Of a stretch of 44,728 nucleotides of DNA, positions 11,513 through 26,300 are shown in pieces. Every line of letters begins with the position of its first letter. Position 1 is the stretch's first letter. The DNA is taken from NCBI GenBank assembly GCA_900316715.1, contig ONEC01000006.1, forward strand, positions 1 through 44,728. Reading direction: 5' to 3'. The notes under the pieces were generated by a model that worked only from the letters and a program-made list of their open reading frames with translations, made no database searches and was not told the origin of the DNA. The DNA comes from an uncultured Eubacteriales bacterium (GTDB lineage: Bacteria > Bacillota > Clostridia > Lachnospirales > Lachnospiraceae). The position numbers and the translations under genes were made by a program.

Positions 11513-12469
11513 CTAATCCTCTTCATCACTACCAACACTGCTGATAACAACCTTGCCGTCAACAACTTCAATCTTAACACGAGACGAATTAAGTCCCGTC
11601 TGTTCACGGATCTCATCTGAAAGCTTCAGTCTTCCCGCCTTATCCAGTACCGAATATTCCTCATGAGCTGATGACATATCGAATCCCTCTTCGTTCATGG
11701 ATTCAATCTTTTCGCGGTACTTCTCCTTCATTACCTTCTCTGTTGTAACTCGGCCATCGGATATCATAACCACTCTGTCAACTTTATTGGCAAGGCTGAT
11801 ATCATGAGTAACTATGATTACTGTTATGCCTCTTTCCCTATTCAGCTTTCTGAAAAGATTCTGTATCATGTCAGAAGTCTTTGAGTCCACCGCTCCTGTA
11901 GGCTCATCCGCCAGAAGTATCTCCGGATCTCTTATAAGAGCGGCTGCTATGGCAACTCTCTGCTGCTCTCCTCCGGACATTTCCTTCGGATAAGAATCAG
12001 CTTTATCTGCAAGGCCCACTTCCTCTAATCGTTCAAGAGCCCTTTTACGTCTTTCCTTCTTAGAGATTTTCTCATAATAGAGCTGTGACTCAACGTTCTC
12101 AACCGCAGTCATATATGGGAAAAGATTCTGGGAGGACTTCTGCCATATGAATCCGATCTTACGTCTTCGCAGTTCTTCAAGCTGTTTCTCTGTTGCAAGA
12201 GACAGGTCCTGACCATCTATAAATATCTTTCCCGCCGACTGGCGCTCTAAGGCTCCTATTATATTAAGCAGAGTGGACTTCCCACTTCCTGATTTACCGA
12301 TGATGGCTATCAGCTCGCCCTTCTCTATGCAGAGCTCCAATCCCTGCAGTGCCATAACCTCTACTTCACTGGTTTTATATAGTTTAACGAGGCCGTCGCA
12401 CTCCACCATGTAATTATGATGTGGAGCCGTGCTCTGATTTTCTTCAATTACTTCGTTTTTATCTTCCAT
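11513..12469 (-). CDS. ABC exporter ATPase with C-terminal AbrB-like domain
   Basis: This is the ATPase of a MacB/LolD-type exporter. Numbered from the ATG at 12469 (318 residues), Walker A GKSGSGKST is at 58-66, signature MSGGEQQR at 164-171, and Walker B ILLADEPTGAVD from 184. All catalytic motifs are intact. A normal LolD-type ATPase ends near residue 230. Here about 85 extra residues follow, and the last 48 (271-318) read SVLDKAGRLKLSDEIREQTGL and a beta-hairpin VKIEVVDGKVVIS, matching the swapped-hairpin AbrB fold. That domain could dimerise the ATPase or bind DNA. The ATG at 12475 is too close to the AGGA site; 12469 is 9 nt away. Last gene of the ten-gene operon. Confidence 0.92.
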   Translation of the reverse strand: MEDKNEVIEENQSTAPHHNYMVECDGLVKLYKTSEVEVMALQGLELCIEKGELIAIIGKSGSGKSTLLNIIGALERQSAGKIFIDGQDLSLATEKQLEELRRRKIGFIWQKSSQNLFPYMTAVENVESQLYYEKISKKERRKRALERLEEVGLADKADSYPKEMSGGEQQRVAIAAALIRDPEILLADEPTGAVDSKTSDMIQNLFRKLNRERGITVIIVTHDISLANKVDRVVMISDGRVTTEKVMKEKYREKIESMNEEGFDMSSAHEEYSVLDKAGRLKLSDEIREQTGLNSSRVKIEVVDGKVVISSVGSDEED

Positions 12470-12487
12470 AAACATCTATCCTTTTCA

Positions 12488-12633
12488 TCAGCCGAGCACT
12501 TTTTTGGCGCTTTCTTGCTTCTCAAGAAGCATCTTGCACTTCGTGCAATCTGGATTCTGCTTCGCTCTGCTCGCAGAATGCGTGCGGCTCACGCCGCATG
12601 CTCGCCATGAGCTGACGCTCAGCCGAGCACTTT
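12488..12633. repeat. Hairpin-array element flanked by 15-bp direct repeats
   Basis: The gap between the two ATPase genes is filled by five consecutive stem-loops. Plus-strand arms are TGCTTC/GAAGCA (12516-12531), TTGCAC/GTGCAA (12534-12548), ATTCTGC/GCAGAAT (12554-12579), TGCGGC/GCCGCA (12583-12598) and TGAGC/GCTCA (12608-12621). The block is bracketed by identical 15-mers TCAGCCGAGCACTTT at 12488-12502 and 12619-12633, the latter containing the stop codon of the upstream gene. The layout suggests insertion of a small palindromic (REP/MITE-like) element with duplication of its target. It has no coding capacity and may act as an RNA-processing or stability block between the two cistrons. Confidence 0.75.
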
Positions 12634-13302
12634 ACCGTCACTCATCTCATACACTGTGTCGCCCATCTGCATAAGTCCCGGGTCATGGGTTGTCATGACA
12701 ATTGAGAGTCCCTCTTTCTCAATAAGCTTCTTAAATAGCGTCACAACCTTGATACCGGTTGCTGTATCCAGAGCTCCTGTCGGCTCATCTGCAAAGAGCA
12801 CTTCCGGTCTTGGAGCTATGGCACGGGCTATGGCAACTCTCTGCTGCTCTCCTCCGGACATCTCCTCAGGTGTATGTCTCATACGTTCCTCTATTCCTAC
12901 GAGAGTCATAACCTCTTTGATTCTCTCATCTCTGTCGCCCTCATATTCTGCCAGTCTGAGTGCGAAGTCCACATTCTCATATGCCGTCATAATCGGGAAG
13001 AGCGCCACTGACTGAAAGACAAAGCCCATATGAACACGCCTGAATTCCTCCATCTTCTCAGCACTGAGTTCGGTAAGTTCCGTGTCATCCATAACCACAC
13101 TTCCGCTGGTAGGCTTATCCAGCGCACTCAGCATATTTATGAGAGTGGTCTTACCTGAGCCGCTTCGTCCTTTTAGGATCGTAAGCTCCGCTCTCTTTAT
13201 CCCTATGCTTACATCATCCAGTGCAGCAAAGGGTTCCGCCTTACCGGTCTGATATATCTTGGTAAGATGTTCTCCTCTAAGTATAATGTTCTCTGTATCC
13301 AT
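12619..13302 (-). CDS. ABC exporter ATPase (MacB/LolD type)
   Basis: An ATPase of 227 residues counted from the ATG at 13302, which has GGGG 6-7 nt upstream; a GTG at 13329 in the same frame is less likely. Walker A GRSGSGKTT (45-53), signature MSGGEQQR (148-155), and Walker B VLFADEPTGALD (168-179) are all intact. It lacks the C-terminal extension of its partner at 11513. Since the operon encodes only one large permease, the two ATPases probably form a heterodimer under it, or serve it alternately. The stop codon lies within a 15-bp direct repeat that brackets the hairpin array. Confidence 0.92.
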   Translation of the reverse strand: MDTENIILRGEHLTKIYQTGKAEPFAALDDVSIGIKRAELTILKGRSGSGKTTLINMLSALDKPTSGSVVMDDTELTELSAEKMEEFRRVHMGFVFQSVALFPIMTAYENVDFALRLAEYEGDRDERIKEVMTLVGIEERMRHTPEEMSGGEQQRVAIARAIAPRPEVLFADEPTGALDTATGIKVVTLFKKLIEKEGLSIVMTTHDPGLMQMGDTVYEMSDGKVLG

Positions 13303-13344
13303 AATATCCCCTGTAAATTCTCTTAACACATCCGTTATGATTGA

Positions 13345-14328
13345 TCAGTCGATTGGCAGGAATCCTTCTATCAGCCTGCTGCCGTCATGGTAAATATAAA
13401 ATAGGTACTGTACGCTGTCATCAGATTCATGTTCTGCTACAGTTATCTTTTTTATCAGCATATATTCATCATCCCCCGAAGCATCTTCTCCTATAACTTC
13501 TTCCGAGGTCTCTTCTGAACTTTCTTCCGAAGCTTCTTCTATACCCTTTTCTGTCTTCAGCTCCTGCCACAGCTCATCCTCTTTCTTGATGAGACTATCT
13601 TCTAAGATAAAGTTATATACCTCATCCTTTTCTGTACTTGCGCAATTAGTAAGATCCTGAACAACCATTCCATCTCCGAGCATCAGCCCCGCCAGTCTCC
13701 GGACCATACCATCATTGAATTCATCTGAAAAGCTGAGATCTTTTTCTCTTCCTTCATTCTCTGAATAATACATACTCTCGATTATTCTTCCTTCAGGAGT
13801 GATATATACTACAAGCTTCTCAGCATTTTCATAATGCGTAAACTCAACTCTCCAGAAGAAACCTGCATAACTCCTGAAGTTTGTATCCAGCGCCTGCATA
13901 TAGGTGCATTTCCAGTTATACCAGTCAGAATACGCCGACTCTATGCCTATAGGATAGAGATTCTTACTCTCCAGCGTATTTATAAGTTTCTTGGTCATCT
14001 CTTCGATGTGATAACCGGAATCCTCATAGTATTCCTTATCCACATCACTGATCTCACTCTCCCACCGTCCGGATATAAGCTGTCTCTTCTGATACTCAGA
14101 AAGCTTCTCTGAAGAAGCCTTGGTAACCTCATAATAGGATGATGTCGGATAATACTCCTCCGGAACATCCATATATACATCTGCCTGGGCTTTTGCCTGA
14201 CGGTCCATCATTTTGCCCGGCATGATCACACAGAGCATCGCAGCAAGGATAGCGAGAAGCATAAGAGCAAGGTTCTTCTTTCTTCCCGGATGTTTATTCT
14301 TCTGTTTTTCAGTCTTCTGTTTCTTCAT
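13345..14328 (-). CDS. Membrane-anchored extracytoplasmic protein, unknown
   Basis: The 327-residue protein has a very basic N-terminus, one membrane segment (about residues 20-38) with no lipobox, and a long hydrophilic domain outside the cell. The domain has an aromatic-rich part (YSDWYNWKCTYMQALD and GFFWRVEFTHYENAEKLVVYITPEGRI), then an acidic Glu/Ser tract (about residues 257-282), and ends with a beta-like segment YLFYIYHDGSRLIEGF. It overlaps the histidine kinase stop by 20 nt, so it is co-translated with the two-component genes. It could be an accessory sensor for the kinase or a part of the exporter. I do not recognise a family. Confidence 0.8.
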   Translation of the reverse strand: MKKQKTEKQKNKHPGRKKNLALMLLAILAAMLCVIMPGKMMDRQAKAQADVYMDVPEEYYPTSSYYEVTKASSEKLSEYQKRQLISGRWESEISDVDKEYYEDSGYHIEEMTKKLINTLESKNLYPIGIESAYSDWYNWKCTYMQALDTNFRSYAGFFWRVEFTHYENAEKLVVYITPEGRIIESMYYSENEGREKDLSFSDEFNDGMVRRLAGLMLGDGMVVQDLTNCASTEKDEVYNFILEDSLIKKEDELWQELKTEKGIEEASEESSEETSEEVIGEDASGDDEYMLIKKITVAEHESDDSVQYLFYIYHDGSRLIEGFLPID

Positions 14329-15736
14329 CGTCTGATTCCATCTTCCATTCGGTATAGATCCGTGTTCCCTTACCTAATTCACTCTCAACTCTGATATCTG
14401 CTTCATGCTTGTTAAGTATTATCGAAACCAGTGACATTCCAAGGCCTGCACCGCCTTCCTTTCTGGTTCTCGACTTATCTGCCATAAAGAATTCATCGAA
14501 GAGTCTTTTCTTAGTCTCTTCGTCCATTCCGATTCCGCTGTCCTCAACAAGGAATTCGTATTTCCCGTCCGGCTTTACACGGCCTGTAAAGTTTACAACT
14601 GCGCCTTCATCCGAAGCCTTCCTTGCATTATCCAGAAGGTTTATAAAGACGGTCTTTATAAGCTCTATATCACCGTATACAGTTCCTTCTTCAAAGTCGG
14701 TATTAAGACTTACATTTTTTCTATCCATGATAGGCTTCATGTGAAGCACTATCTGATGACCCAGGTCTTCTGCATCAATCTCTTCCATGAAGATATCATT
14801 GCCCTTCAGATATATCAGATCAAAAAGCTTCTGGGACATATTCTCCAGTCTTCTTCCCTCGGTATAGATATAGTCCAGCGACATATCCTTCTCTTCCTCG
14901 GAAAGATCCAGATGCCTTACAGAATCTGCATAACCGATGATGGTTGTCATCGGAGTTTTCATCTCATGGGTAAAGTCAGCAACAAACTGATCACGGCGCT
15001 TAACCATATCCTTCAGTTCTTCCACGTGATCTTCCACGGAACCTGCCATGGCATTGAAGTTGCCGGCCAGCTCGCCTACTTCATCATCTGACTTCACATC
15101 TGCACGTACTGTATAATCTCCACCGGATATCTGAGTGGTGATCTTATTCAGTTTTTCAAGCGGTCTTGTAAGGAGATATGTAATGACATACATGATAAGT
15201 GCCGACAGAAGAAGCACTGCCACAGAAATGGTTTTAAGGAACTTCAGATTGTCACTGAGCTGGGTATAAACACCGGTTATGTCCTTACGTGTAATGATAT
15301 ATAAATTTGCTTTATTGATGTATCCCGGAGAGCTTATATAAACATAGTACTCTTTACCGTTATCATGATAAATGTACCGCTTACTGCCAACATCGGTAAG
15401 TTCTGCCGGAATGTCTGCTTCATTTCCGTCTCCGGAATATACTACTTCATCTTCTATTTTTATATAAAGTGTACTTCCTGAAAGAAGCATACCTGTATCT
15501 ACTCTCTTGGCAATTCTGCTTACATCTTTCTTAAGTGAGTAGTCAGGAGAATTAAGAATCTCAAGGAGCTCATACTCCAGAGATGCCTTAACCATGTTGT
15601 TTTCAGATGCTGCATTTCGAAGCTCTGATTCCAGTGCCTGCTTGTAATTTCTGTACACGAAGAGATACCCGGTACAACCAAGTATTATCGACAGGATTAT
15701 TAAGTTTACAAAAAGCACCTTGTATCTGAACTTCAT
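14309..15736 (-). CDS. Sensor histidine kinase of the exporter operon
   Basis: A membrane histidine kinase of 475 residues. TM1 is at about 8-28, followed by an extracytoplasmic sensor domain of about 135 residues, TM2 at 167-188 and a HAMP domain at about 189-242. The dimerisation/phosphoacceptor motif is FTHEMKTPMTT, with His257. The ATPase domain has the N-box NLLDNARKAS, G1 DSGIGMD and G2 GGAGLGMSLV, all intact. It lies 39 nt after the response regulator gene and overlaps the membrane-anchored protein gene downstream. The sensor domain is large enough to bind a ligand itself, unlike the short-loop BceS type that reads flux from its transporter. Confidence 0.94.
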   Translation of the reverse strand: MKFRYKVLFVNLIILSIILGCTGYLFVYRNYKQALESELRNAASENNMVKASLEYELLEILNSPDYSLKKDVSRIAKRVDTGMLLSGSTLYIKIEDEVVYSGDGNEADIPAELTDVGSKRYIYHDNGKEYYVYISSPGYINKANLYIITRKDITGVYTQLSDNLKFLKTISVAVLLLSALIMYVITYLLTRPLEKLNKITTQISGGDYTVRADVKSDDEVGELAGNFNAMAGSVEDHVEELKDMVKRRDQFVADFTHEMKTPMTTIIGYADSVRHLDLSEEEKDMSLDYIYTEGRRLENMSQKLFDLIYLKGNDIFMEEIDAEDLGHQIVLHMKPIMDRKNVSLNTDFEEGTVYGDIELIKTVFINLLDNARKASDEGAVVNFTGRVKPDGKYEFLVEDSGIGMDEETKKRLFDEFFMADKSRTRKEGGAGLGMSLVSIILNKHEADIRVESELGKGTRIYTEWKMESDDEETED

Positions 15737-15775
15737 ACTTATCCTGCTGCCGGAGGGTCTGATACCCTGCTGCCG

Positions 15776-16432
15776 CTACCTTTCCGTGAGCTTGTAACCC
15801 ATATTATAAACTGTAACCAGATTGCTCTTTAGTCCAACCTTTTTTCTGATTCTCTGTACATGGAGATCAACTGTTCTTGTTTCTGCATCTGAGTCACCGC
15901 CCCAGACCTCTTCATAAATCTTATCTCTGTAAAGAGTTATATTCTTATTCCTGAGGAAGAGAACCAGCATCTCATATTCCTTCGGGGTGAGACGAATCTG
16001 CTCTCCGGCTTTTATTACTTCGTTGCTTTCAGTATTTACCGTAAGATCTCCCAGAGTAAGAATCTTCTCTGTCTTATCATATCTTCTCAGGACGATATTT
16101 ACTCTGGCTATAAGCTCCAGCGGATCAAAGGGCTTTATCATATAGTCCTCCGCTCCTGAAGTAAGACCATGAAGGCGATCATCTATCGTAGCTCTTGCAG
16201 TAATAAAAATAACAGGTATTGAAAGTGGTTTTATATAATCCATAACTTCAAAGCCATCTGCTCCCGGAAGCATGACATCCAGGAGAACCAGGTCGAAATG
16301 CTCCGTATCCACTATATCTATAGCATCAAGGCCGTTATAGACTGCCGTACATTCATAGCCTTCCTTTCGGAGATTGAGCCTTATAAGATCTGATATTGGT
16401 TTTTCATCTTCAACAACAAGTATTTTTATCAT
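15776..16432 (-). CDS. OmpR-family response regulator of the exporter operon
   Basis: A 218-residue regulator with a receiver domain (acidic pair Glu8-Asp9, phosphoacceptor Asp52 in LLDVMLPG, Thr78, Lys100) and a C-terminal winged-helix DNA-binding domain (LTPKEYEMLVLFLRNKN, then RTVDLHVQRIRKKVG and VYNMGYKL). It is followed by its kinase gene. It probably binds the three 10-bp-phased repeats at 26224-26253, at the operon promoter, giving autoregulation. That target is inference. It starts 5 nt after the stop of the lipoprotein gene at 16438. Confidence 0.94.
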   Translation of the reverse strand: MIKILVVEDEKPISDLIRLNLRKEGYECTAVYNGLDAIDIVDTEHFDLVLLDVMLPGADGFEVMDYIKPLSIPVIFITARATIDDRLHGLTSGAEDYMIKPFDPLELIARVNIVLRRYDKTEKILTLGDLTVNTESNEVIKAGEQIRLTPKEYEMLVLFLRNKNITLYRDKIYEEVWGGDSDAETRTVDLHVQRIRKKVGLKSNLVTVYNMGYKLTER

Positions 16433-16437
16433 CGTTA

Positions 16438-18132
16438 TTATTCCTCGTCATCAGTAGTGTTCCATCTGTTCATATGGTCACGTATTATCTGATATCTCTC
16501 CCATCCGCCGTTATCATAAAGCTTATAGCCTTCATTTCCTCTCTTATAACCATCAAAAGGATCACTCAGCTCATCCTGAACCTTTATAAAACTTCCGTCC
16601 ACTGCATTTATTATCATACATGGTCCTGTCGTCATCTGTACACCACCGCCTGCACCTTCTACCATTACATTTCTCGCAGCTGCATCTGTATCGCCCGAAT
16701 TATAGAGTATGTAGGCCGGAACATAAGTGTACTCACCTTTATTTTCTCTGGATCTGAGCGGGAAGTTTATAAGTTTCAGCTGGTTCAATTCAATATTTAC
16801 TGCAGAAAAATCCTTTGGAATATTCCATGCATCCGCATTATCTACGTTATCTATTATAATATCTTTTATGTCATATGTTGTAAGTAATTTTTCTGTCTGC
16901 TCTTCTTTCATGACCTTCATAGGATTGACCAGCTGGCAGCCAAGTACATCACCTTTTTCTGTGACCATTACAGTGATATAGGAATTAATATCCATTATCT
17001 CCAGATCATCTGCATATACATTCAGCTTAAAGAGTTCAGCCTCATAGTTGATATCTCTGTCCTCTATACCATCAAATGTAAACTTTACAGTATAGCCCTT
17101 CTGAATATCATCCGGGCCAACCTTTGAATACTGTGTATAAGGAAGATCTGTTCCATAGGTTATAACCCCATCCACGCCCTTGCGATAAACATATCCGTAT
17201 GACTTATCGTCAGTATATTTATAATCAGTGAAGCCGATTGCTTCGACGAACTTCTCCGCCTCGGATATTATATTTTCAGGAACATCCATAGGACTTGCAT
17301 TTCCTTCTATAGGCATGTAGTCATATGAACAGCCATACATTCCATCGTATAGCTCACCAGGATTTTCTCTGAATATAGTACACTGTCTTCCATTCATATT
17401 CATGCTGTATGGTGCCTGAACATACTGATTCAGATTACAGTTGCCAAAATACATATAGTAGGAAGCACCCTCTATCTCCCCTATATATCCTCCATAGGAG
17501 TAATCATTTTCAACAGTATCAGGTGCTGCATCTCTTTCACTCTGCAGATCAGCTATAACTTTATCCACGTTATTTAACATATTTTCGTAGGCATCCGGTC
17601 CCGGTTCCTCTTCTCCCGGCAGCGCTTCAATTATAAGTCCTGCATTTTCATCAAGATACATAGCTTTAAGAGCTTCATACATAGCTATCTCTGAATCATA
17701 GAGTCTCTTTGTTTTATTTGAATAATCATAAACCTCTACACTATCTCCAAAGACCTGCTTACAGGTACTCTCTATGAAGGCCTGATCATAGTCCCCTGTT
17801 TCTACAGTTATTATGCTTCCGGCAGCACCTGTGTTATCCTTTATTTTTGCCTTGATATTTACTGATTCAAAAGGTCCGTCAGAACATGATAATTTCTCTG
17901 TCCAGTATTCCGGTTCAGCACTGTTTTCGCTTCCCTTATCTGACTGTGACTTATTATCTTTACTATCTTTCTCTTCAGTCTTCTTACCTTCTTCAGCAGA
18001 TGTGCCTTCCGTTGATACTTCCTCATAACCGCTTACAACTTCAGCCTGCTTCTCACATCCTGTGGTGCTCCCCAGTATCATGCATACAGCAAGTCCTGCT
18101 GCGGCTAATCCTTTATTCTTTTTCACCTTCAT
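16438..18132 (-). CDS. Large lipoprotein, paralogue of the 18161 gene
   Basis: This 564-residue surface lipoprotein has a signal peptide ending ILGSTTGC, then a charged linker rich in Lys, Glu and Ser (about residues 30-72), and a globular domain. It shares many conserved stretches with the product of 18161: VEVYDYSNK, ENDYSYGGYIGEI, AWNIPKDF against LWNIPYGR, NKGEYTYVPAYILYNS, and INAVDGSFIKVQDEL. The two are tandem duplicates that have diverged. I cannot name a function; the beta-rich look and position inside an exporter operon suggest a substrate-handling or sensing partner. It lies just before the response regulator gene. Confidence 0.88.
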   Translation of the reverse strand: MKVKKNKGLAAAGLAVCMILGSTTGCEKQAEVVSGYEEVSTEGTSAEEGKKTEEKDSKDNKSQSDKGSENSAEPEYWTEKLSCSDGPFESVNIKAKIKDNTGAAGSIITVETGDYDQAFIESTCKQVFGDSVEVYDYSNKTKRLYDSEIAMYEALKAMYLDENAGLIIEALPGEEEPGPDAYENMLNNVDKVIADLQSERDAAPDTVENDYSYGGYIGEIEGASYYMYFGNCNLNQYVQAPYSMNMNGRQCTIFRENPGELYDGMYGCSYDYMPIEGNASPMDVPENIISEAEKFVEAIGFTDYKYTDDKSYGYVYRKGVDGVITYGTDLPYTQYSKVGPDDIQKGYTVKFTFDGIEDRDINYEAELFKLNVYADDLEIMDINSYITVMVTEKGDVLGCQLVNPMKVMKEEQTEKLLTTYDIKDIIIDNVDNADAWNIPKDFSAVNIELNQLKLINFPLRSRENKGEYTYVPAYILYNSGDTDAAARNVMVEGAGGGVQMTTGPCMIINAVDGSFIKVQDELSDPFDGYKRGNEGYKLYDNGGWERYQIIRDHMNRWNTTDDEE

Positions 18133-18160
18133 CTTATGTACCTCTGTTCAGTCTTACCTT

Positions 18161-19909
18161 CTATTCCTCTGTTGAACCTATAGGTCCCACTTTCCCAAGT
18201 CTTGGATTTCTTTCATTCCTTTTCCACTGACCGGCAACATAATTGGTATATCCAACATTTCCGTTATCCCATCCTGCCGGATAATCAGTGAGCTGATCCT
18301 CTACAGTTACCACGCTTCCATCTAATGCATTTATTACGATAAACGGTGAATCTACATCACTCTTGGCAGGAATTATATAGCCTGAGTTTACTTCGTATTC
18401 ATCCATCAGCCTTGAATATATTACATAACAAGGAACGAGGGTATATTCTCCCTTCTCTTTATCTGAGCGGATCGGAAAGCTTACAAGTTTTGCGCTGTCC
18501 AGATTGAAAAGATTAACCTTTCTTCCGTATGGAATATTCCATAATTCCTTATCATCCACGCTTTCTCTTACTATATCCTTAACAGTATCTCTATCTATTA
18601 TGCTCTTCACCGGCTCTGACTTAACCACACTTGCCGGATTGTATATCTGACATCCGAGGACACCATTTGCATTCACATAGACATCCACGAAAGAATCATA
18701 GTCCAGCGTATCACCATCCTCTGAATATACCGGCATCTGAAGATCGTAGTGTTCCAGTCTTTCCATGCCGGAAGAACTTATATCAAATCGATACCTCTTT
18801 CCGTCATTCATCTGCTGCATATATGAAACCATCTTATAACCATTGGCATACATAAAACCGTCATCGATTTTATTGCTCCATATAAGTTCTCCGATTTCAT
18901 CCTCACAAAAACTATAATCATTATATCCCAGTCTGCCCAGAAATTCCTCTGCCTGTTCAAGCATCTTCTCATCATCGGCTGTATCACCGCCAATGTTTTG
19001 AAGCATTGGGCTGGAGCCTATAAGGCTGTTCATCTTAAATGATGCATCTTCTAAAACCAGGTCCAGCTCAGATGGATCAGCCCCTTCTTTTTCCATAATT
19101 TCAGCTATAGAGTGTCCTGCAAAAGCTGACTCCAGATCTCTCCTCATAATAGTCACGACACGGCCATTATACTGAAGTGTATCAATTGAATTTAAGTACT
19201 CATTATAATTTCTGTTTCCAAAGATCATATAGAATTCTTCACCATCTATTTTTCCAAGATATCCGCCATAGGAATAATCGTTTTCAATTTTCTCCGGTGC
19301 CGATTCTCTCTCACTCAGTAAAGCATTATAATCTTCTTCTATGACAGACCTGTCCATCCTTTCAATATTTTCGCTGAGAGACCAGTATCCGTTTGCCATA
19401 AACTCATCCGGTGCATACTGAAATGCCTGATCTATCCCCTTCTCGTCATACATATCATACAGTTCAAGTGCTTCGCTGTAATCTTCTATCACGTCATCAT
19501 ACAATTTCTTAGACTTATTCGAATAATCATAGACCTCAACTTCTCCATTATCGAATACCGTATCACACATTTTCTTGGCAAAGTCCGCATCAAACTTCTC
19601 ATATTCGACCGTTATGACATTCATTTCCTGTGCACTGTAATCTTTAAGAGAAACTGCGGCGTCTATATATTCAAAGCCGTCTCCTGTTCCCTCTATCCTC
19701 TCGTACCATCTTTCAGTCTCTCCGGGTGCACTCTTTTCTTCTGATTTTCCGTTATCTTCAGAACTCTTATCTGCTGCAGTTTCCCCCGATTCTGCAGCAG
19801 TTGACTTCTCTGTATAGCCCTCAACGGTATCTGCCTTTTTCTCGCATCCGCTGCACATCAGCATGCCTGCTGAAAGCACCAGACTGATCATAATTCTTCT
19901 TTTTCTCAT
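18161..19909 (-). CDS. Large lipoprotein, paralogue of the 16438 gene
   Basis: A surface lipoprotein of about 582 residues counted from the ATG at 19909, which has GGAGG 5 nt upstream; an open frame continues to 19963 but starts with an alternative codon inside the permease gene. The lipobox is in LMCSGCEKK, followed by an acidic Ser/Glu linker. The globular part parallels the 16438 product (VEVYDYSNKSKKLYD, ENDYSYGGYLGKI, LWNIPYGR, KGEYTLVPCYVIYSR, INALDGSVVTVEDQLTD). The two lipoproteins probably form a pair at the cell surface working with the exporter. No known enzyme motif is seen. It lies 44 nt after the permease gene. Confidence 0.88.
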   Translation of the reverse strand: MRKRRIMISLVLSAGMLMCSGCEKKADTVEGYTEKSTAAESGETAADKSSEDNGKSEEKSAPGETERWYERIEGTGDGFEYIDAAVSLKDYSAQEMNVITVEYEKFDADFAKKMCDTVFDNGEVEVYDYSNKSKKLYDDVIEDYSEALELYDMYDEKGIDQAFQYAPDEFMANGYWSLSENIERMDRSVIEEDYNALLSERESAPEKIENDYSYGGYLGKIDGEEFYMIFGNRNYNEYLNSIDTLQYNGRVVTIMRRDLESAFAGHSIAEIMEKEGADPSELDLVLEDASFKMNSLIGSSPMLQNIGGDTADDEKMLEQAEEFLGRLGYNDYSFCEDEIGELIWSNKIDDGFMYANGYKMVSYMQQMNDGKRYRFDISSSGMERLEHYDLQMPVYSEDGDTLDYDSFVDVYVNANGVLGCQIYNPASVVKSEPVKSIIDRDTVKDIVRESVDDKELWNIPYGRKVNLFNLDSAKLVSFPIRSDKEKGEYTLVPCYVIYSRLMDEYEVNSGYIIPAKSDVDSPFIVINALDGSVVTVEDQLTDYPAGWDNGNVGYTNYVAGQWKRNERNPRLGKVGPIGSTEE

Positions 19910-19952
19910 CTTAACCTCCACACAATGTCCGCTTTTCCAGACATCTTCCTTA

Positions 19953-22766
19953 CTACTCTTCACCCATCTTAATTGCTTCTGTAATATTAAGTCTCTTTAT
20001 GAATCTGACTATTATAAACATGCAGAGTATTATTACTGCTGCCATCATAATTCCGATCCTTATGAATCCTGAATATGACATATATATCTTTAATGGTATC
20101 GTGTGTTTATCCGGCAGATATACCAGACTTAACAGCTTGATAAAGAATGCTGAGGTAAGCGCACCTACTATCACACTGGATATAAGTGATGTCATGGTGC
20201 TGAACACATGCTCCTTCACCAGCATTCTGTTCACTGACTTCATTCCAAGTCCCATAGCACGATATACACCGAAGTACATCTGTCTTGCATGAATTGATGT
20301 GAGCCAGTAGATCAGGAAGCCTATCATACAGATTACCATGGATACGATAAAACTTATATTGAAAAGTCCGTTGGTGATAAGAAGGACCGCTGAACTGAAT
20401 ACCTTATCTATCTCATCATCCATTCCGATAAGCTTATTGAACTTAATCTCCTGACTGTCAAGATATGCAGCAATATCATCGATTGTCACATCCTCACTCA
20501 TATCTATCCATACTTCCGGAGGAATCTCCCCATAGGCTATGGTAAGCGTTGCTGAATTAACAACCACAAGATATCTTTCCTGCATCATGGTCTTCTCATC
20601 TTCTTCATTGTAGAAATATCTGTTATATCCCGGGAAGGCATCAACTATTCCTACAACCTGAAAGTCAAGGGAATATATTATTCCTGACGTATCATCACTG
20701 AGAGGAGACTCAAGTTTAAGTTCTATGGAATCACCCACTGCAAGATCAAATTTCTCTGCCATATTACTGGAGATTATTACACCATTTGATATCATCGCCA
20801 GCTCATTCAGATCCTTATACCAATGATGATCATTAAGCATTTCATCAAATACAGCGGTCTCTCCGAATTCCTTTGTATCTATTCCCATAAGAAGAACATC
20901 TTTAGCTTTTCCCTTATGAGTTACTGCACTCAGCTTTTCAGTCCTATAAACCTTTGTCATTCGGTCCACAAGACCTTCATCCTTCATCTTTGTGAGTTCG
21001 CTGTAGTCCATTCCTAAAAGCGACCATCCGCCGCCCTTACTCTCAGACTCGGCTACCAGTCTGCAGGCCGGAGAAAGAACCGCTTCTGCACCGATATTAT
21101 TTACCAGTCTTTCTCTCTTATTCCTGTTCACGGTCTTGGCAAGATTGGCGTTATAGATACCCATCGCAATGGTTATGATAAGAAATACCGATATAACCCA
21201 TGACTTTCTTCTTGTTCTTATAACCTCCAGAAATGCCGCCAGCGTTGCCGGCTTCCACTTCTTCTGACCTGCTTTATAAATTGCAGTTATGATAAGTCTT
21301 GAGAGTCTTATCATAAGAAATGCAGCGCCAAAGGTGAACAGTTCCGAATCGATAAGACACATCGGATCCGCAACCTTTCCGGAAAGTATCTCTGCTACCA
21401 TCACGTCCTTCTGTCTGTTGTAGTTGTATAAAAGATAACAGGATACTGCTACAAGTATGATATCGATGTAATACTTTTCTATAAAACTGTTCTTTCCTGT
21501 ACCGGACTTTTTACCACGGTTCGAAAGGATGGTATTCTTTGATGCTTTGATAATAGGTATGATACATATGATCATTGCCACAGGAAATGCAGCTGCCACA
21601 TATAACAGAAGTTCCGGTCTTAAAGTATAGGATGGAGTAGGCTTCCACTTAAAGGATAAAAAGTCTACCGAAGCTGCTCCGGCCTTGCACATGAAGTATC
21701 CAAGCATAACACCCGGAATCACCGCCGCAAGGGTTATGATAAAAGACTGAAGTATATACTGTCTTATGATCGTAAATCTCGATATACCTCTGCTTCGAAG
21801 TACATTAATCTCTCCCTCTTCTGCAACTCTTATTCTGTCTGAGATCATATATATGAATATAAGGATCAGTGCAAAGAGCGGAAACAGAATCGACAAAACC
21901 GTAACCTTTACCTGCTTTGCCGTTTCCATGTAATCGTCCAGGATGCCGTCAAAGTTTGACTTAAACTGCATATCAAGGCTTCCGAACTGTGACAGATAAC
22001 TGTTTGTTGCCTTAATGTTGCTGCTGTCTATGGCTCTGTAGTCAAGCATTTCATATACTTCATAAGAAACACTTTCTACGCCGTATTCTGCAATCATCTT
22101 ATCGAGATATTCTTCTCTCAGAATAAGCATCTCTTTATTCTTTCTCAGCGAATCATACCAATAATAATCACCATTATCACATGGTTCTGCTATACCGATT
22201 ATCCTGAGCTTCGGAGTTTCGCCCTTGTCGTTCTCCATGGCCGTAAGTTCCAGTGTTTCTCCAACACTCAGGTTCTTATCTTCCATTGTATATTTGGACA
22301 TATAGCAGGGAAGAACTCCCGGTTCCTCTTTATAATCCTCATCGATATCGATAAGCTTCAGATTCTTATCCATATCATTAAAGATACCGGTCTGAATAGT
22401 ACCTCTTTCACCTGCCATATCAGGTTCTATTCTTCCTGCAGAGATAGTAATTATCTTTTCTGTACTGAGAACAGGGATTTCAAAATATCTGTTCCACTTC
22501 GATGTGGTTTCATCAATTACGGCATTTACTTCAGCTATACTCTTTGCTTCTTCTGTATAGATTTTACCGGAGGTCTGAATAGTTGCCGGAAATCTCGCTT
22601 CCTCTACTCCCTTTGTTTCAAAATTATAGATGATAACATCATCGAGGGCACCTCTCTCAAACATAGGTATAAGAGAAAACATTGCTATAAGGATAACTAT
22701 TCCGAAGAACAGACATCCATTAAGCAGCTTTTGATTTTTCAGTTTTTTGCTTATAAACTGAAGCAT
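19953..22766 (-). CDS. Large FtsX/MacB-like ABC exporter permease
   Basis: The 937-residue membrane protein has about ten hydrophobic segments: one at residues 16-36, three at about 288-410, more at about 433-545, and three C-terminal ones in the last 140 residues. Two extracytoplasmic domains lie at about 40-285 and 550-790. This is the tandem FtsX arrangement of large MacB/BceB-like permeases, which move lipoproteins, peptides or antibiotics by mechanotransmission rather than through a classical channel. The C-terminal FtsX unit includes RAMGLGMKSVNRMLVKEH; the first unit has RSRGISRFTIIRQYILQS. It starts 2 nt after the adaptor gene stop at 22769. Confidence 0.93.
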   Translation of the reverse strand: MLQFISKKLKNQKLLNGCLFFGIVILIAMFSLIPMFERGALDDVIIYNFETKGVEEARFPATIQTSGKIYTEEAKSIAEVNAVIDETTSKWNRYFEIPVLSTEKIITISAGRIEPDMAGERGTIQTGIFNDMDKNLKLIDIDEDYKEEPGVLPCYMSKYTMEDKNLSVGETLELTAMENDKGETPKLRIIGIAEPCDNGDYYWYDSLRKNKEMLILREEYLDKMIAEYGVESVSYEVYEMLDYRAIDSSNIKATNSYLSQFGSLDMQFKSNFDGILDDYMETAKQVKVTVLSILFPLFALILIFIYMISDRIRVAEEGEINVLRSRGISRFTIIRQYILQSFIITLAAVIPGVMLGYFMCKAGAASVDFLSFKWKPTPSYTLRPELLLYVAAAFPVAMIICIIPIIKASKNTILSNRGKKSGTGKNSFIEKYYIDIILVAVSCYLLYNYNRQKDVMVAEILSGKVADPMCLIDSELFTFGAAFLMIRLSRLIITAIYKAGQKKWKPATLAAFLEVIRTRRKSWVISVFLIITIAMGIYNANLAKTVNRNKRERLVNNIGAEAVLSPACRLVAESESKGGGWSLLGMDYSELTKMKDEGLVDRMTKVYRTEKLSAVTHKGKAKDVLLMGIDTKEFGETAVFDEMLNDHHWYKDLNELAMISNGVIISSNMAEKFDLAVGDSIELKLESPLSDDTSGIIYSLDFQVVGIVDAFPGYNRYFYNEEDEKTMMQERYLVVVNSATLTIAYGEIPPEVWIDMSEDVTIDDIAAYLDSQEIKFNKLIGMDDEIDKVFSSAVLLITNGLFNISFIVSMVICMIGFLIYWLTSIHARQMYFGVYRAMGLGMKSVNRMLVKEHVFSTMTSLISSVIVGALTSAFFIKLLSLVYLPDKHTIPLKIYMSYSGFIRIGIMMAAVIILCMFIIVRFIKRLNITEAIKMGEE

Positions 22767-22768
22767 TA

Positions 22769-25159
22769 CTAATCCTCCACCACAGTTGTCGTTTCTCTTA
22801 TGATCTTATCGCCTATCTCTACTCCATCGATGATTATATACACATCACCAGATGGTATAGCCTGAATATATCTCTTTGTAAGTGTGCCGTTCTCAAGCAC
22901 CCATACATAATCAATCGGTTTATTCTCATTATATTCCGAATAGATTACTCCCTTGTCCAATACCGGAACTCCCTTCAGCTCCGTAGACTTGAACTTAACA
23001 AGGACATCGCTCTTTTCCTTAAGTGCCTTTTCATAATCTATTTCTTCATCAAATTCCGCATAGAACTGATCTCTGTATTCAGCTCCGGCGGTACAGGTTG
23101 TAAATACAGGATTACCCGCTCTCTCTGCGAGATATACTGATTTTTCTGCACCATTTACACCTATGCATCTTCCTCCAAAGGTTTTATCTTCTATGGTTAT
23201 TTCCAATTCTCTTCCAAGCTGCGCTGACTTAAATGGTGCACTCGGATCTGAATCATCTCCTCCTCCGAACTGAGATGTCTTCATCTCTCTCATCTGAACC
23301 AGAGTTTCGTCCACCCCTTCTTCAACAACGGAGAGTATATGTGATCTGCTCTTATAGACACTGCCGGAGAATGCATCCTTATCTATATTTTTTACTATTC
23401 CGTCAGACTCTGCATATACACTGATAACTCCATCACCATTATTATTCTCACTGATCGCTGAATATTGTTTTTCCAGTCTTGCAAGACTTGTATTAAAGGT
23501 CAGATTTTCAAGCTGTATTCTGTAATCGATTATTGTGAGATTCAGATTCTTCTTTTCTTCCACATATCTTGGTATATATTGTGGGGTTTCCGGTATGTCC
23601 GTAATCTCAGGAGCTGCCGGAGCTGTCGGAATAATATATTTATAAGCATCCGTCGCTGATGCATCTGTGGCTGTTGCTGTTCCTATCTGTGTGTCCTTTA
23701 TTACCTCCGGTTCAGGTGCCGGTGTCTCCTCCGGTTCCTCCGGATTCTTCATATCATTAAACATCTTAATAGTGTCATTATGATTTTTCTTAAGTGTTAT
23801 AATGTTCTGCTCAAGCTCTCCAAGTTTTGCTCTTCCATTTTCCGTTGCATAAGAAAACAGCAGATCTCCCTTCTTAACTTCCTGATTCATCTTTACATTA
23901 ACTTCTTCAATCTTTCCCGGGAAATCATTGTAATAACCCTTAACATGTGAATTCTTTCCCAGAATAAAACTGCTGGTCTGTTCTTTACTTACATCCCCTG
24001 TTCCTACTTCAACTTCCTTGTAGTACTGAGGATAGTACTCTCCCAGTGGATAACAGATATCATCCTCTAATGTAAGTCCGTAAGTTATCTCCACATACTT
24101 TCCATCAGTATGACCGACCTCGACATTTCTCTTTTCTACATCTTCTCCTTCTTTTCTGACATAGACATATTTATTCATTCCATGATAGGATACTGCGCCG
24201 GCTCCAACTGTAAGTACGTTTTCTGCGATCGTATCCTTAAATACCAGAAGGTAATTATCTCCCGCCTTAAGTTCTCTGCTTACTCTGTATCTGAGCGGCA
24301 GCGGATTGCCTGTAACTTCTGCCAGGCTGAGCACCTGCTGGGAATACTCAATCTCTGTGATATCAACCTTCTCACCATCTATATACGTGTAATGCTCTTC
24401 ATAATCCTTTACCTGGTTTTTGGTTGCATTTACATTTGAACACTCTATATAAAGATCATCCATATCCGATATGACAACCACATTTTCATAAGGCTTTGCC
24501 ACATCATTAACACTTATATCTTTTAAAAATGTAATGTATCCCGAATGATCAGCTACAAGAGTTGCATTTCCCTGGCTTGCTGAATACTTATCTTTCTCAG
24601 CCTTGCTCTTTGCTGCTTCGTAAGAAGCTACTTCATCGTTATAACGCTTATCCTCTACCGCAAGCGCAATATTCGTATCAGCTCTTTTTACTCCTTCTTC
24701 ATCCCCATTCTCTACAGCTTCCATGCGGTTATAATTCTGAAGTTCTATCAGAAGATCATCTATCTTTCTCTGGATGCCCACTCCTTCACTTCCGTCGGTA
24801 CCTTCACTGTATCCCATGCCCTGGCTGACGGATTCTCCCACAGCGATCACATCTCCTTCTTCAACATAATCACCGATCTTAACCTTAACCTCTTTCACCG
24901 TCATGAATTTATCATAGAAGACCGGATATGCAGTCGGAACCACAACGCCCTCATAATACTTAACATCCTTCAGGTCACGCATCTCAGGATTTCTGAATAT
25001 CCTGGAAACTGACACAGGTGCGATAAGCTCCGGAGCGTCATAACCCTTTCGGGCTCCGCATCCCGTAAGAGATGTAAGCATCACAGCCGCCGAAAGAACT
25101 ATTGCTGTTATTCTGTTTTTACGACGCTCGCCATGAGCACTACTTAGCCAAAATCTCAT
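22769..25159 (-). CDS. Double-module HlyD/MacA-like adaptor lipoprotein
   Basis: The 796-residue periplasmic-adaptor-like protein is anchored as a lipoprotein (lipobox around LTSLTGC). It contains two adaptor units in one chain. Unit one has a lipoyl half-motif VKVKIGDYVEEGDVIAVG (about residue 90), a helical hairpin and a returning lipoyl half ADHSGYITFLKDI. Unit two has GKIEEVNVKMNQEVKKGDLLFSY (about residue 420), a hairpin interrupted by a Pro/Glu-rich insert, and YAESDGIVKNIDKDAFSG. A C-terminal membrane-proximal-like domain ends with VEIGDKIIRET. The N-terminal 13 residues (MRFWLSSAHGERR) are coded by sequence overlapping the previous gene's end and a short palindrome. It starts 20 nt inside the previous gene. 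Confidence 0.9.
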   Translation of the reverse strand: MRFWLSSAHGERRKNRITAIVLSAAVMLTSLTGCGARKGYDAPELIAPVSVSRIFRNPEMRDLKDVKYYEGVVVPTAYPVFYDKFMTVKEVKVKIGDYVEEGDVIAVGESVSQGMGYSEGTDGSEGVGIQRKIDDLLIELQNYNRMEAVENGDEEGVKRADTNIALAVEDKRYNDEVASYEAAKSKAEKDKYSASQGNATLVADHSGYITFLKDISVNDVAKPYENVVVISDMDDLYIECSNVNATKNQVKDYEEHYTYIDGEKVDITEIEYSQQVLSLAEVTGNPLPLRYRVSRELKAGDNYLLVFKDTIAENVLTVGAGAVSYHGMNKYVYVRKEGEDVEKRNVEVGHTDGKYVEITYGLTLEDDICYPLGEYYPQYYKEVEVGTGDVSKEQTSSFILGKNSHVKGYYNDFPGKIEEVNVKMNQEVKKGDLLFSYATENGRAKLGELEQNIITLKKNHNDTIKMFNDMKNPEEPEETPAPEPEVIKDTQIGTATATDASATDAYKYIIPTAPAAPEITDIPETPQYIPRYVEEKKNLNLTIIDYRIQLENLTFNTSLARLEKQYSAISENNNGDGVISVYAESDGIVKNIDKDAFSGSVYKSRSHILSVVEEGVDETLVQMREMKTSQFGGGDDSDPSAPFKSAQLGRELEITIEDKTFGGRCIGVNGAEKSVYLAERAGNPVFTTCTAGAEYRDQFYAEFDEEIDYEKALKEKSDVLVKFKSTELKGVPVLDKGVIYSEYNENKPIDYVWVLENGTLTKRYIQAIPSGDVYIIIDGVEIGDKIIRETTTVVED
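25126..25138. repeat. Short palindrome shared with the hairpin array
   Basis: GCTCGCCATGAGC occurs here directly after the stop codon of the adaptor gene at 25140 and again at 12600-12612 in the hairpin array. It pairs GCTC with GAGC. A shared 13-mer alone can be chance in 45 kb; the matching position after a stop codon in the same operon is the reason to record it. Confidence 0.35.
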
Positions 25160-26153
25160 CGCCTTCGCTTAGTCCTTCCCTAATGATGATATCCTCGCCC
25201 AGAATGCCATCTGTCTCAACTTCTCTCGCTACTCTTGCCCCATGCTCATCAAGAACAAATGCGTAGTAATGTCCATCGTTCTCTTTGATGCATTTAGCAG
25301 GTACATGGAGCACATCCTTTTTTACTTCTTCTGCTACTGTAACCTTCAGTCCTCTTTCTATAGTCATCTCTTCCCCAGAATTGATGATCTTAAAGTATAT
25401 CTTTGAACCCGCCGAACTTTTTTCTACCTTTTCAACCTTTGCATCATACGAAACTATATAACTGTATGCCTGTACCACATCTCCCTCTTTAAGGGTTGTG
25501 CTCTCCTTTGTTTCCAGAAAGTAAGTATCGTCTCCCGATGCGATTGTTATAAGATTATCTGTGCTTGAAAGAACTCCGCTTATGGCTCTGTCCGAAACAT
25601 TTATTACCTTTCCGTCTTCCTCTGCATATATGCTGAGAGACGCTTTCTTTTCTTCCAGCTCTGCCAGATATCCGTTTGCAACCTTTATGGTTTCTTCGCA
25701 TCTGTTGATTGCTCCTGAATTATCTTCATCAGGGTTAATGGCACTTCTGTTTCTCAGATGCTTTATATCTATTTCTGCTCTTTCCTTCTGCTCCTCATAC
25801 TGCTTTATACTGTCCTCTAATGACTGTGAGCGGAGTCTTATCAGTACATCGCCGGCCTTTACCGTATCTCCCACATTTACAAAGAGCTGATCAAATTCTA
25901 TATCCTCCAGCATGGTGGCATCCATACGCTTTACTTCAAAGCCATAGGACTTCTCCTTATAATTATCCAGCTGAAGCTCTTCCTCTATTCCGTATACCAG
26001 ATCACCCTTCTGAACATAGGCCATGGAAAACTCAGTTTCCTGATCCGACTCCTCCGGAACTCTGACCAGCGGCCTCTCCTTCTCAAGAGAACATCCGGTG
26101 AGTGACATTATTAAAATTATAAGAAGCAGACTGTATCGTCTCTTGTTCTTCAT
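25140..26153 (-). CDS. Single-module HlyD/MacA-like adaptor lipoprotein
   Basis: A 337-residue adaptor, the first gene of the ten-gene operon. It has a signal peptide with lipobox MSLTGC (Cys21), then a lipoyl half LFVNVGDTVKAGDVLIRL (about residues 90-107), a helical hairpin (about 110-172), and the second half YAEEDGKVINVSDRAISG. A beta-barrel part follows, then a C-terminal domain with VLHVPAKCIKENDGHYYAFVL and GLSEGDEILAK. This is the order of membrane fusion proteins of ABC and RND exporters. In a Gram-positive it would bridge the permease and the wall or a surface partner. Its start is 9 nt after GGGG and about 38 nt after the proposed transcription start. Confidence 0.92.
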   Translation of the reverse strand: MKNKRRYSLLLIILIMSLTGCSLEKERPLVRVPEESDQETEFSMAYVQKGDLVYGIEEELQLDNYKEKSYGFEVKRMDATMLEDIEFDQLFVNVGDTVKAGDVLIRLRSQSLEDSIKQYEEQKERAEIDIKHLRNRSAINPDEDNSGAINRCEETIKVANGYLAELEEKKASLSIYAEEDGKVINVSDRAISGVLSSTDNLITIASGDDTYFLETKESTTLKEGDVVQAYSYIVSYDAKVEKVEKSSAGSKIYFKIINSGEEMTIERGLKVTVAEEVKKDVLHVPAKCIKENDGHYYAFVLDEHGARVAREVETDGILGEDIIIREGLSEGDEILAK

Positions 26154-26197: not shown

Positions 26198-26203
26198 ATT
26201 ATG
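26198..26203 (-). promoter_or_regulatory. Extended -10 box of the exporter operon promoter
   Basis: On the minus strand CATAAT preceded by TGG gives an extended -10 element. At the proper distance upstream there is no good -35 hexamer (ACAACT/TACAAC), which is typical of an activator-dependent promoter; the direct repeats at 26224-26253 occupy that position. Confidence 0.55.
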
Positions 26204-26223
26204 CCAAAAAGTTGTTTCTAAGT

Positions 26224-26253
26224 TGTATCCGAATGTATACAAATGTATCTAAA
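26224..26253 (-). promoter_or_regulatory. Three 10-bp-phased direct repeats, probable response regulator box
   Basis: Read on the minus strand the three units are TTTAGATACA, TTTGTATACA and TTCGGATACA: the same ATACA every 10 bp exactly. They overlap the -35 position of the exporter operon promoter. Tandem sites one helical turn apart on the same DNA face are how OmpR-family regulators bind, and one such regulator is encoded in the operon. Confidence 0.7.
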
Positions 26254-26289
26254 AATAAAAAAATGGGATACAGTAAATGCATCCCATTT
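26252..26289 (-). terminator. Rho-independent terminator after the GH95 gene
   Basis: AAATGGGAT / ATCCCATTT arms (9 bp) around an 11-nt loop are followed on the minus strand by TTTTTTTATTTTT. It ends the glycan operon just before the exporter operon promoter. Confidence 0.9.
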
Positions 26290-26300
26290 CGGTAGTATTT

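Follow-up and report, generated by a model that had tools for sequence, protein, structure and literature searches.

A shared predicted operator before an exporter operon and scattered DUF6034-group lipoprotein genes suggests a defence regulon against peptide-like attack in Lachnospiraceae

Ten genes on the minus strand of a 44,728-nucleotide stretch from an uncultured Lachnospiraceae bacterium (contig ONEC01000006.1, positions 1 to 44,728; the whole stretch is here called the window) are one operon behind a conserved promoter. As a well-supported prediction, one operator is common to this exporter operon, to a regulator operon and to dispersed lipoprotein genes, which makes the regulon wider than the operon. 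The presence of the same predicted operator before scattered lipoprotein genes suggests a defence regulon against peptide-like attack. We give a probability of about 0.5 to the reading that the system is an autoregulated envelope-defence regulon directed against membrane-active peptides, in which a Type VII exporter with several adaptors is joined by a number of DUF6034 lipoproteins. That the exporter substrate is peptide-like is something we infer.

An ORF check of the window placed all ten reading frames on the minus strand, transcribed in the order ADP1, ADP2, PERM, LIPA, LIPB, RR, HK, ANCH, ATP1, ATP2. With the two DNA elements in front of them they are:

26260..26290, minus strand: terminator-like hairpin behind the upstream gene (ORF 26301-28439)
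26198..26249, minus strand: predicted response-regulator operator, four phased GAWACA-like units and a CATAAT -10 box (sequence, cross-locus architecture)
25140..26153, minus strand: ADP1, adaptor lipoprotein with one HlyD/MacA-like module (domain match; lipobox by eye)
22769..25159, minus strand: ADP2, fused two-module adaptor lipoprotein (domain match, halves compared with separate genes; lipobox by eye)
19953..22766, minus strand: PERM, fused FtsX/MacB-type permease of 937 aa with two FtsX stretches (domain match, hydropathy)
18161..19909, minus strand: LIPA, DUF6034-group lipoprotein (listed ORF start GTG 19963; ATG 19909 preferred)
16438..18132, minus strand: LIPB, second DUF6034-group lipoprotein, 31% identical to LIPA
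15776..16432, minus strand: RR, OmpR/PhoB-type response regulator (domain match)
14309..15736, minus strand: HK, HAMP-HisKA-HATPase kinase with an extracytoplasmic stretch of ~140 aa (domain match; hydropathy)
13345..14328, minus strand: ANCH, single-TM protein with an extracytoplasmic alpha/beta domain, kinase-linked (hydropathy, model, gene order)
12619..13329, minus strand: ATP1, MacB/LolD-class ATPase, Walker A GRSGSGKT (domain match, motif)
11513..12475, minus strand: ATP2, MacB/LolD-class ATPase with a C-terminal extension (domain match)

Pfam and NCBIfam searches identified two ABC ATPases, a HAMP/HisKA/HATPase kinase, an OmpR-type regulator, an FtsX permease and two HlyD/MacA-like adaptors. 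Neighbouring genes overlap by at most 20 nt or are separated by at most 43 nt when the preferred LIPA start is used; the exception is the gap of 143 nt between ATP1 and ATP2. The tightly spaced, one-strand arrangement of ten genes given in a preliminary description, including its coordinates, was therefore confirmed with this one exception. The start of LIPA is probably the ATG at 19909, which gives a protein of 582 aa, because GGAGG lies just upstream of it. The operon promoter is found downstream of the terminator-like hairpin. This hairpin closes the gene of ORF 26301-28439, which is presumably GH95-like, and sugar-related genes of the alpha-galactosidase-like, MFS sugar transporter-like and sugar epimerase/dehydratase-like types lie upstream in the window.

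The permease PERM has ten hydrophobic segments and two large intervening stretches of ~250 aa each, which were read as extracytoplasmic from hydropathy. Pfam and NCBIfam showed two FtsX stretches and MacB core domains. Since both the FtsX and the large extracytoplasmic stretches occur twice, the single polypeptide is read as a two-lobed pseudo-dimer. The earlier view of one large FtsX-type permease was right as to the domain, and is corrected in that two FtsX stretches are fused. The ATPases were analysed for their motifs. All 74 ATP1 relatives have the Walker A GRSGSGKT and all 73 ATP2 relatives have G.SGSGK[ST]; signature and H-loop are present throughout, and Walker B was found in 72/74 (ATP1) and 69/73 (ATP2). 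With the motifs intact in both, we rejected the idea that one ATPase is a dead copy. For ADP2, relatives with split genes were informative: one gene matches the N half (profile positions ~7-370) and the other the C half (~364-727) of the fused protein. Long flanks were available for 61 loci, and 49 of them have the fusion; in this survey a distance filter gave the window's own ATP1 a count of 0, which is an artefact. We rejected the idea that the fusion arose from faulty assembly or a frame error because separate genes of relatives match each half, and the double adaptor proposed earlier thus corresponds to two adaptor genes elsewhere. Since each ATPase is conserved and the ADP2 halves are separate genes elsewhere, the core ADP1-ADP2-PERM-ATP1-ATP2 is, as judged from sequence, a machine in which a single asymmetric permease works with two different ATPases and adaptor modules of three kinds. 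The conserved core and its domain matches thus agree with the earlier proposal of a composite exporter that uses two ATPases and several adaptor modules.

By its domains, the exporter is a multi-adaptor member of the Type VII (MacB/FtsX) superfamily, with an FtsX permease, a MacB-type periplasmic core and ATPases of the MacB/LolD class. In MacAB sensu stricto the ATPase is fused to a four-TM permease and one adaptor kind is used, whereas here the ATPases are separate, the permease is fused and three adaptor modules are present. YbbAP(-TesA) has one ATPase kind and is not known to have adaptors or a dedicated two-component system or lipoproteins. According to a passage of PMC5985334 and the abstract of PMC12646458, its permease YbbP is a fusion of two MacB-type units and has two periplasmic domains, and domains and hydropathy give PERM the same plan. 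A single ATPase kind was not found, as ATP1 and ATP2 are both conserved with distinct Walker A motifs. BceAB-BceRS and PsdAB are similar to the present system in the FtsX-superfamily permease, the ATPase and the OmpR-type two-component system. The BceAB-associated kinase is not known to have a large sensor domain, whereas ~140 aa of HK are predicted outside by hydropathy, and the present system in addition has adaptors. A passage of PMC5985334 describes a single periplasmic domain for BceB, whereas hydropathy gives PERM two stretches of ~250 aa.

When the PERM profile was searched against the PDB, the best solved-structure matches were LolF and LolC (E ~3e-6), and PsdB was also among the matches. 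PDB sequence searches gave superfamily matches without a close relative for PERM and ADP1, and nothing for ADP2, ANCH and LIP. Among NCBIfam models, LolD ranked first for ATP2 and third for ATP1, with every score below cut-off. LolCDE and LolDF, members of the same superfamily, have one ATPase kind and are not known to have adaptor lipoproteins or a two-component system. A Lol-like machine that extracts, releases or exposes the DUF6034 lipoproteins as its cargo, with machine and cargo co-induced from the common predicted operator, would be consistent with these matches. It is quite unlikely, since the LolC matches probably reflect the whole Type VII superfamily, relatives of the lipoproteins also stand beside transporters with a small permease pair and no adaptors, and 34/65 flanked exporter loci have neither a LIP gene nor the two-component system.

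The spread of the exporter was followed with PERM. Relatives were found in 29/200 genomes of the family at E <= 1e-20 and, by profile search at E <= 1e-30, in 39/295 genomes of the order and 8/299 of the phylum, the window's genome being counted each time. These presence counts are lower bounds, because the ORF caller takes the longest ORF and sometimes masks a gene under an antisense ORF. The wider locus set, the best 80 of 556 confirmed stretches in the profile scan, comes mostly from MAGs of Lachnospiraceae, Eubacterium or Clostridiales, and the order ADP1-ADP2-PERM-ATP1-ATP2 recurs in it. ATP1-ATP2 follow PERM in 28 of the 31 loci annotated first, and a contig end cuts one of the remaining three. 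They overlap or are at most 19 nt apart in 54/67 measured loci, compared with 143 nt in the window. The gene 3' of PERM is ATP1 in 66 cases and LIP in 7, and none was found in 10. The LIP insertion between PERM and ATP1, mostly together with RR-HK-ANCH, is confined to the window's clade (window, L062, L063, L064, L065, L173, L177). The full ten-part set, with two or three LIP genes, is present in the window, L063, L064, L173 and L177; L065 has no RR-HK-ANCH, and contig borders truncate L062 and, from the same genus, L176. We therefore do not regard conserved synteny of the ten genes as what defines the system, since their order characterises the genus clade. A gene order confined to close relatives had been named beforehand as a refuting outcome; by this measure the exact order, found only in the window's genus, fails, while the set of parts, rearranged, does recur across the family. 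A second core in the same genome (G000:C98) has divergent ANCH, HK and RR, with tandem LIP genes farther out. The host bacterium of the operon has close kin in the rumen.

A tree of 83 permease sequences, made with a quick method and SH-aLRT support only, showed two large groups. No LIP gene and no such kinase or ANCH was found nearby in the group of 27 rows (24 with enough flank), whereas they are often present in the group of 56. Sufficient flank was available at 65 loci, of which 22 carry both LIP and kinase/ANCH, 7 carry LIP only, 2 carry kinase/ANCH only and 34 carry neither; in an independent-pairs test the association of LIP with the two-component system did not reach significance (median p 0.125). 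Since so many loci have neither, the pump can operate in their absence, and its role may be a general one. In the group without DUF6034, alternative core neighbours were seen upstream of the three-adaptor core: a DUF4349 lipoprotein gene in L116 and L126 and a penicillinase-repressor-like gene in L127.

The promoter with phased repeats noted before was found as described. In the window, four units are spaced by 10, 10 and 11 nt, and the distance from the first base of the last unit to that of CATAAT is 15 nt. On its two strands together, the window has a single perfect match to three ATACA copies spaced 10 nt apart. The same architecture with the same -10 distance is kept before ADP1 in L063, L064, L065, L173 and L177, and the predicted family-wide pattern is GAWACA-N5-GAWACA-N9-YATAAT. 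For scoring, a matrix was drawn up by eye on the basis of the ADP1 promoters in the window and these five loci, whose sites are therefore not independent of the test. With a score of at least 21, 13 sites were found in ~1.8 Mb of loci, 10 of them intergenic and upstream of system genes, compared with 0, 0 and 1 in three block shuffles. At a cut of 15.4, chosen after the scores were known, 39/71 first genes had an upstream site (ADP1 14/28, LIP 16/29, RR 9/14), as against 3/121 internal ADP1, LIP or RR genes and 1/350 other core genes. The remaining 32/71 first genes have no strong operator. Among dispersed LIP promoters of three genomes, 14/20 scored at least 15.4; these 20 include three near-copies between G000 and G207 and several already met in the pattern search, and exclude the LIP loci of ten-gene operons and two from L174 and L178. 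In a background of 147 regions, which include system genes, the best non-system score was 14.7. Within the genus, seven genomes with LIP had a raw number of 7-15 pattern sites each, as against 0-6 in eleven LIP-negative genomes that were chosen from 53 without a LIPA match (U test, p = 0.0005); controls with the reversed pattern gave 1-4. A pattern with 4-nt spacing was in weak excess (4, 6 and 6 sites versus 1, 1 and 2). Since the predicted operator precedes many exporter, RR and LIP first genes, the self-regulation proposed earlier is well supported as a prediction. Operator-like sites also precede genes that are not clearly DUF6034 (G203:C1:1086201, G000:C92:37762, G000:C171:5284), and the LIP-negative genus mate G205 has two good-looking sites (G205:C1:624261 and 631073). 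These extra sites are possibly further regulon members or chance occurrences.

The sensor module consists of RR, HK and ANCH. The ANCH gene stands immediately after HK in 23/26 cases; in L092 and L176 the two overlap through over-extended ORFs, and in L098 they are apart. Because of this position, ANCH is assigned to the sensor module, and its gene order indicates that it travels with the kinase rather than with the pump. ANCH had no family match in Pfam or NCBIfam at E <= 0.001. Its structure model (pLDDT 81, pTM 0.73) gave no Foldseek match below E 0.1.

LIPA and LIPB had no family match in Pfam or NCBIfam at E <= 0.001, and hmmscan with LIPA gave nothing at E <= 0.1. In the genome search, however, the LIPA region matched DUF6034 with 31.9 bits at a cut-off of 27. 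Among 65 aligned LIP members, 54 match DUF6034 (PF19499) and 7 match a PepSY-type model, both at E <= 0.1. In the genome of the window, a profile search counted by rows gave 14 LIP genes, which lie at 9 places, plus two fragments; 7 of the 9 places have the predicted operator. The system is patchy in the genus, since only 8/61 genomes have a LIPA relative. The AlphaFold2 model of LIPA (pLDDT 79, pTM 0.80) had one strong Foldseek match, 5coz, with E 5e-7 and TM-scores of just 0.23/0.33; the second match, YycI, a sensor kinase regulator, was weak (E 0.04). The entry 5coz is EUBREC_2869, a solved uncharacterised protein of Eubacterium rectale, and neither it nor the DUF6034 family was named in any paper found in the open-licence literature. 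The YycI match, the PepSY-type matches and the sugar-related genes upstream in the window would fit an exporter for a polysaccharide or peptide that the cell makes for its own surface, with the two-component system and the lipoproteins steering cell-wall remodelling and not defence. The terminator-like hairpin splits off the sugar genes, flanking genes vary between the relatives' loci and no biosynthetic gene was seen to stay with the core among these flanks, so we consider this explanation unlikely.

Nine additional DUF6034 loci from the order (L189-L197) were compared. RR-HK lie immediately upstream of the LIP gene in 7/9 and a pair of small membrane proteins is nearby in 6/9; the complete order RR-HK-LIP-permease-permease-ATPase was found in three (L190, L193, L194) and partially in L195 and L196. 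In these Cpr-like loci, the two ATPases tested matched best to TIGR03740 (lantibiotic protection), below its cut-off, and one small membrane protein weakly matched a lantibiotic immunity permease model (E 9e-4). Their top operator score was 15.0, and we rejected them as members of the same regulon. LIP genes also adjoin other FtsX transporters in L174 and L178; in the latter (G000:C127, 9386-16336) a LIP gene with its own predicted operator shares one strand with genes for an M13-family peptidase, an ATPase and an FtsX permease. With RR-HK before LIP in seven loci with other transporters or neighbours, and ANCH immediately after HK, LIPA, LIPB and ANCH might be purely sensory, binding a ligand and signalling to HK with no role in transport. 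This is improbable, as ~14 LIP genes at 9 places, 7 of them with the operator, are more in keeping with an output than with one input to a sensor. The preliminary description of a composite exporter or sensor with dedicated partners thus holds for the single operon and the composite exporter. It does not hold for the lipoproteins as dedicated to the pump, with their many places and their relatives beside Cpr/LanFEG-like transporters, nor for ANCH as a dedicated exporter partner, which is a partner of the kinase.

We found no characterised system with this parts list in the open-licence literature, in agreement with what had been stated before. The Gram-positive pumps closest in plan combine adaptor, FtsX-type permease and ATPase, as does the present operon. 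Spr0693-0694-0695 of S. pneumoniae is described in passages of PMC5768738 as a MacAB-like three-gene pump with one adaptor and one ATPase, modelled as 6:2:2, and MadEFG of E. faecalis, in passages of the preprint PMC10614854, is under the two-component system MadRS and protects against LL-37. Such pumps are thought to carry peptides from the membrane past the wall (passages of both sources). They differ in having three genes, whereas the present operon codes for a fused permease with two ATPases and three adaptor modules, and also for lipoproteins and ANCH. In Cpr/LanFEG-LanI-LanRK systems, as a passage of PMC5786555 describes, a two-component system, an ABC transporter and in some cases a lipoprotein share one locus, and LanI binds the peptide. 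The present system has the same three components and DUF6034 occurs in loci of that plan; however, those systems have a small ABC-2-type permease pair and no adaptors, whereas the sole permease gene here is of FtsX type, and the operator is not common to the DUF6034 loci of that plan.

The present system joins the MacAB-like pump plan to the Cpr/Lan module plan, and we prefer the defence reading. The DUF6034 genes in RR-HK-LIP-permease-permease-ATPase loci, with ATPases closest to TIGR03740 although below its cut-off, support it, and Spr0693-0695, MadEFG and the LanI and Cpr lipoproteins serve as precedents. Several findings count against it: the Cpr-like loci have no shared operator and their ATPase matches are below the NCBIfam cut-off; 34/65 flanked loci are without LIP and two-component system and 32/71 first genes without a strong operator; LIPA is found in only 8/61 genus genomes, and G205 has sites despite its LIP-negative scoring; LIPA matches only 5coz strongly, with low TM-scores, and YycI weakly, and the fold of ANCH is unmatched. 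In the defence reading, HK, with ANCH as an accessory subunit and perhaps a lipoprotein as ligand binder, would sense a compound that acts on the membrane or the wall and is most likely a bacteriocin-like peptide. Once phosphorylated, the regulator would bind the phased repeats and switch on the pump, itself and the DUF6034 lipoproteins, which may bind the compound at the surface like LanI lipoproteins. The permease and an ATP1/ATP2 heterodimer would pull the compound out of the membrane by mechanotransmission, and the adaptors would carry it past the wall. MacA forms a six-fold ring, and our guess is that the three unlike adaptor modules, possibly taken twice, make a similar one. In a more specific form, which we regard as rather doubtful, one RR-HK-ANCH module would run a hetero-adaptor Type VII pump (three unlike adaptors, two unlike ATPases, possibly a 2x3 hetero-hexameric ring, an asymmetric permease) together with a dispersed, diversified DUF6034 set whose members would be interchangeable and would serve, each for other peptides, as surface receptors or immunity proteins, an arrangement not yet described.

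With this parts list, a role that can be tested is proposed for the first time for the DUF6034 lipoproteins, most of whose 9 places in one genome are tied to one predicted operator. The Gram-positive MacAB-like pumps compared here have one adaptor and one ATPase; the exporter deviates from this plan and could therefore reveal the working of an asymmetric adaptor ring. If the system does serve defence, its regulon would provide Lachnospiraceae of rumen and gut with resistance to community-shaping peptides.

An Rfam scan of the window gave zero matches at the gathering score. The gap between ATP1 and ATP2 is occupied by a hairpin-rich element (window 12485-12620, minus strand; fold z-score -3.0 for 12476-12618) that is flanked by repeated AAGTGCTCGGCTGA. 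One further copy of this element is present in the same genome (C167), with 88% identity over 109 nt.
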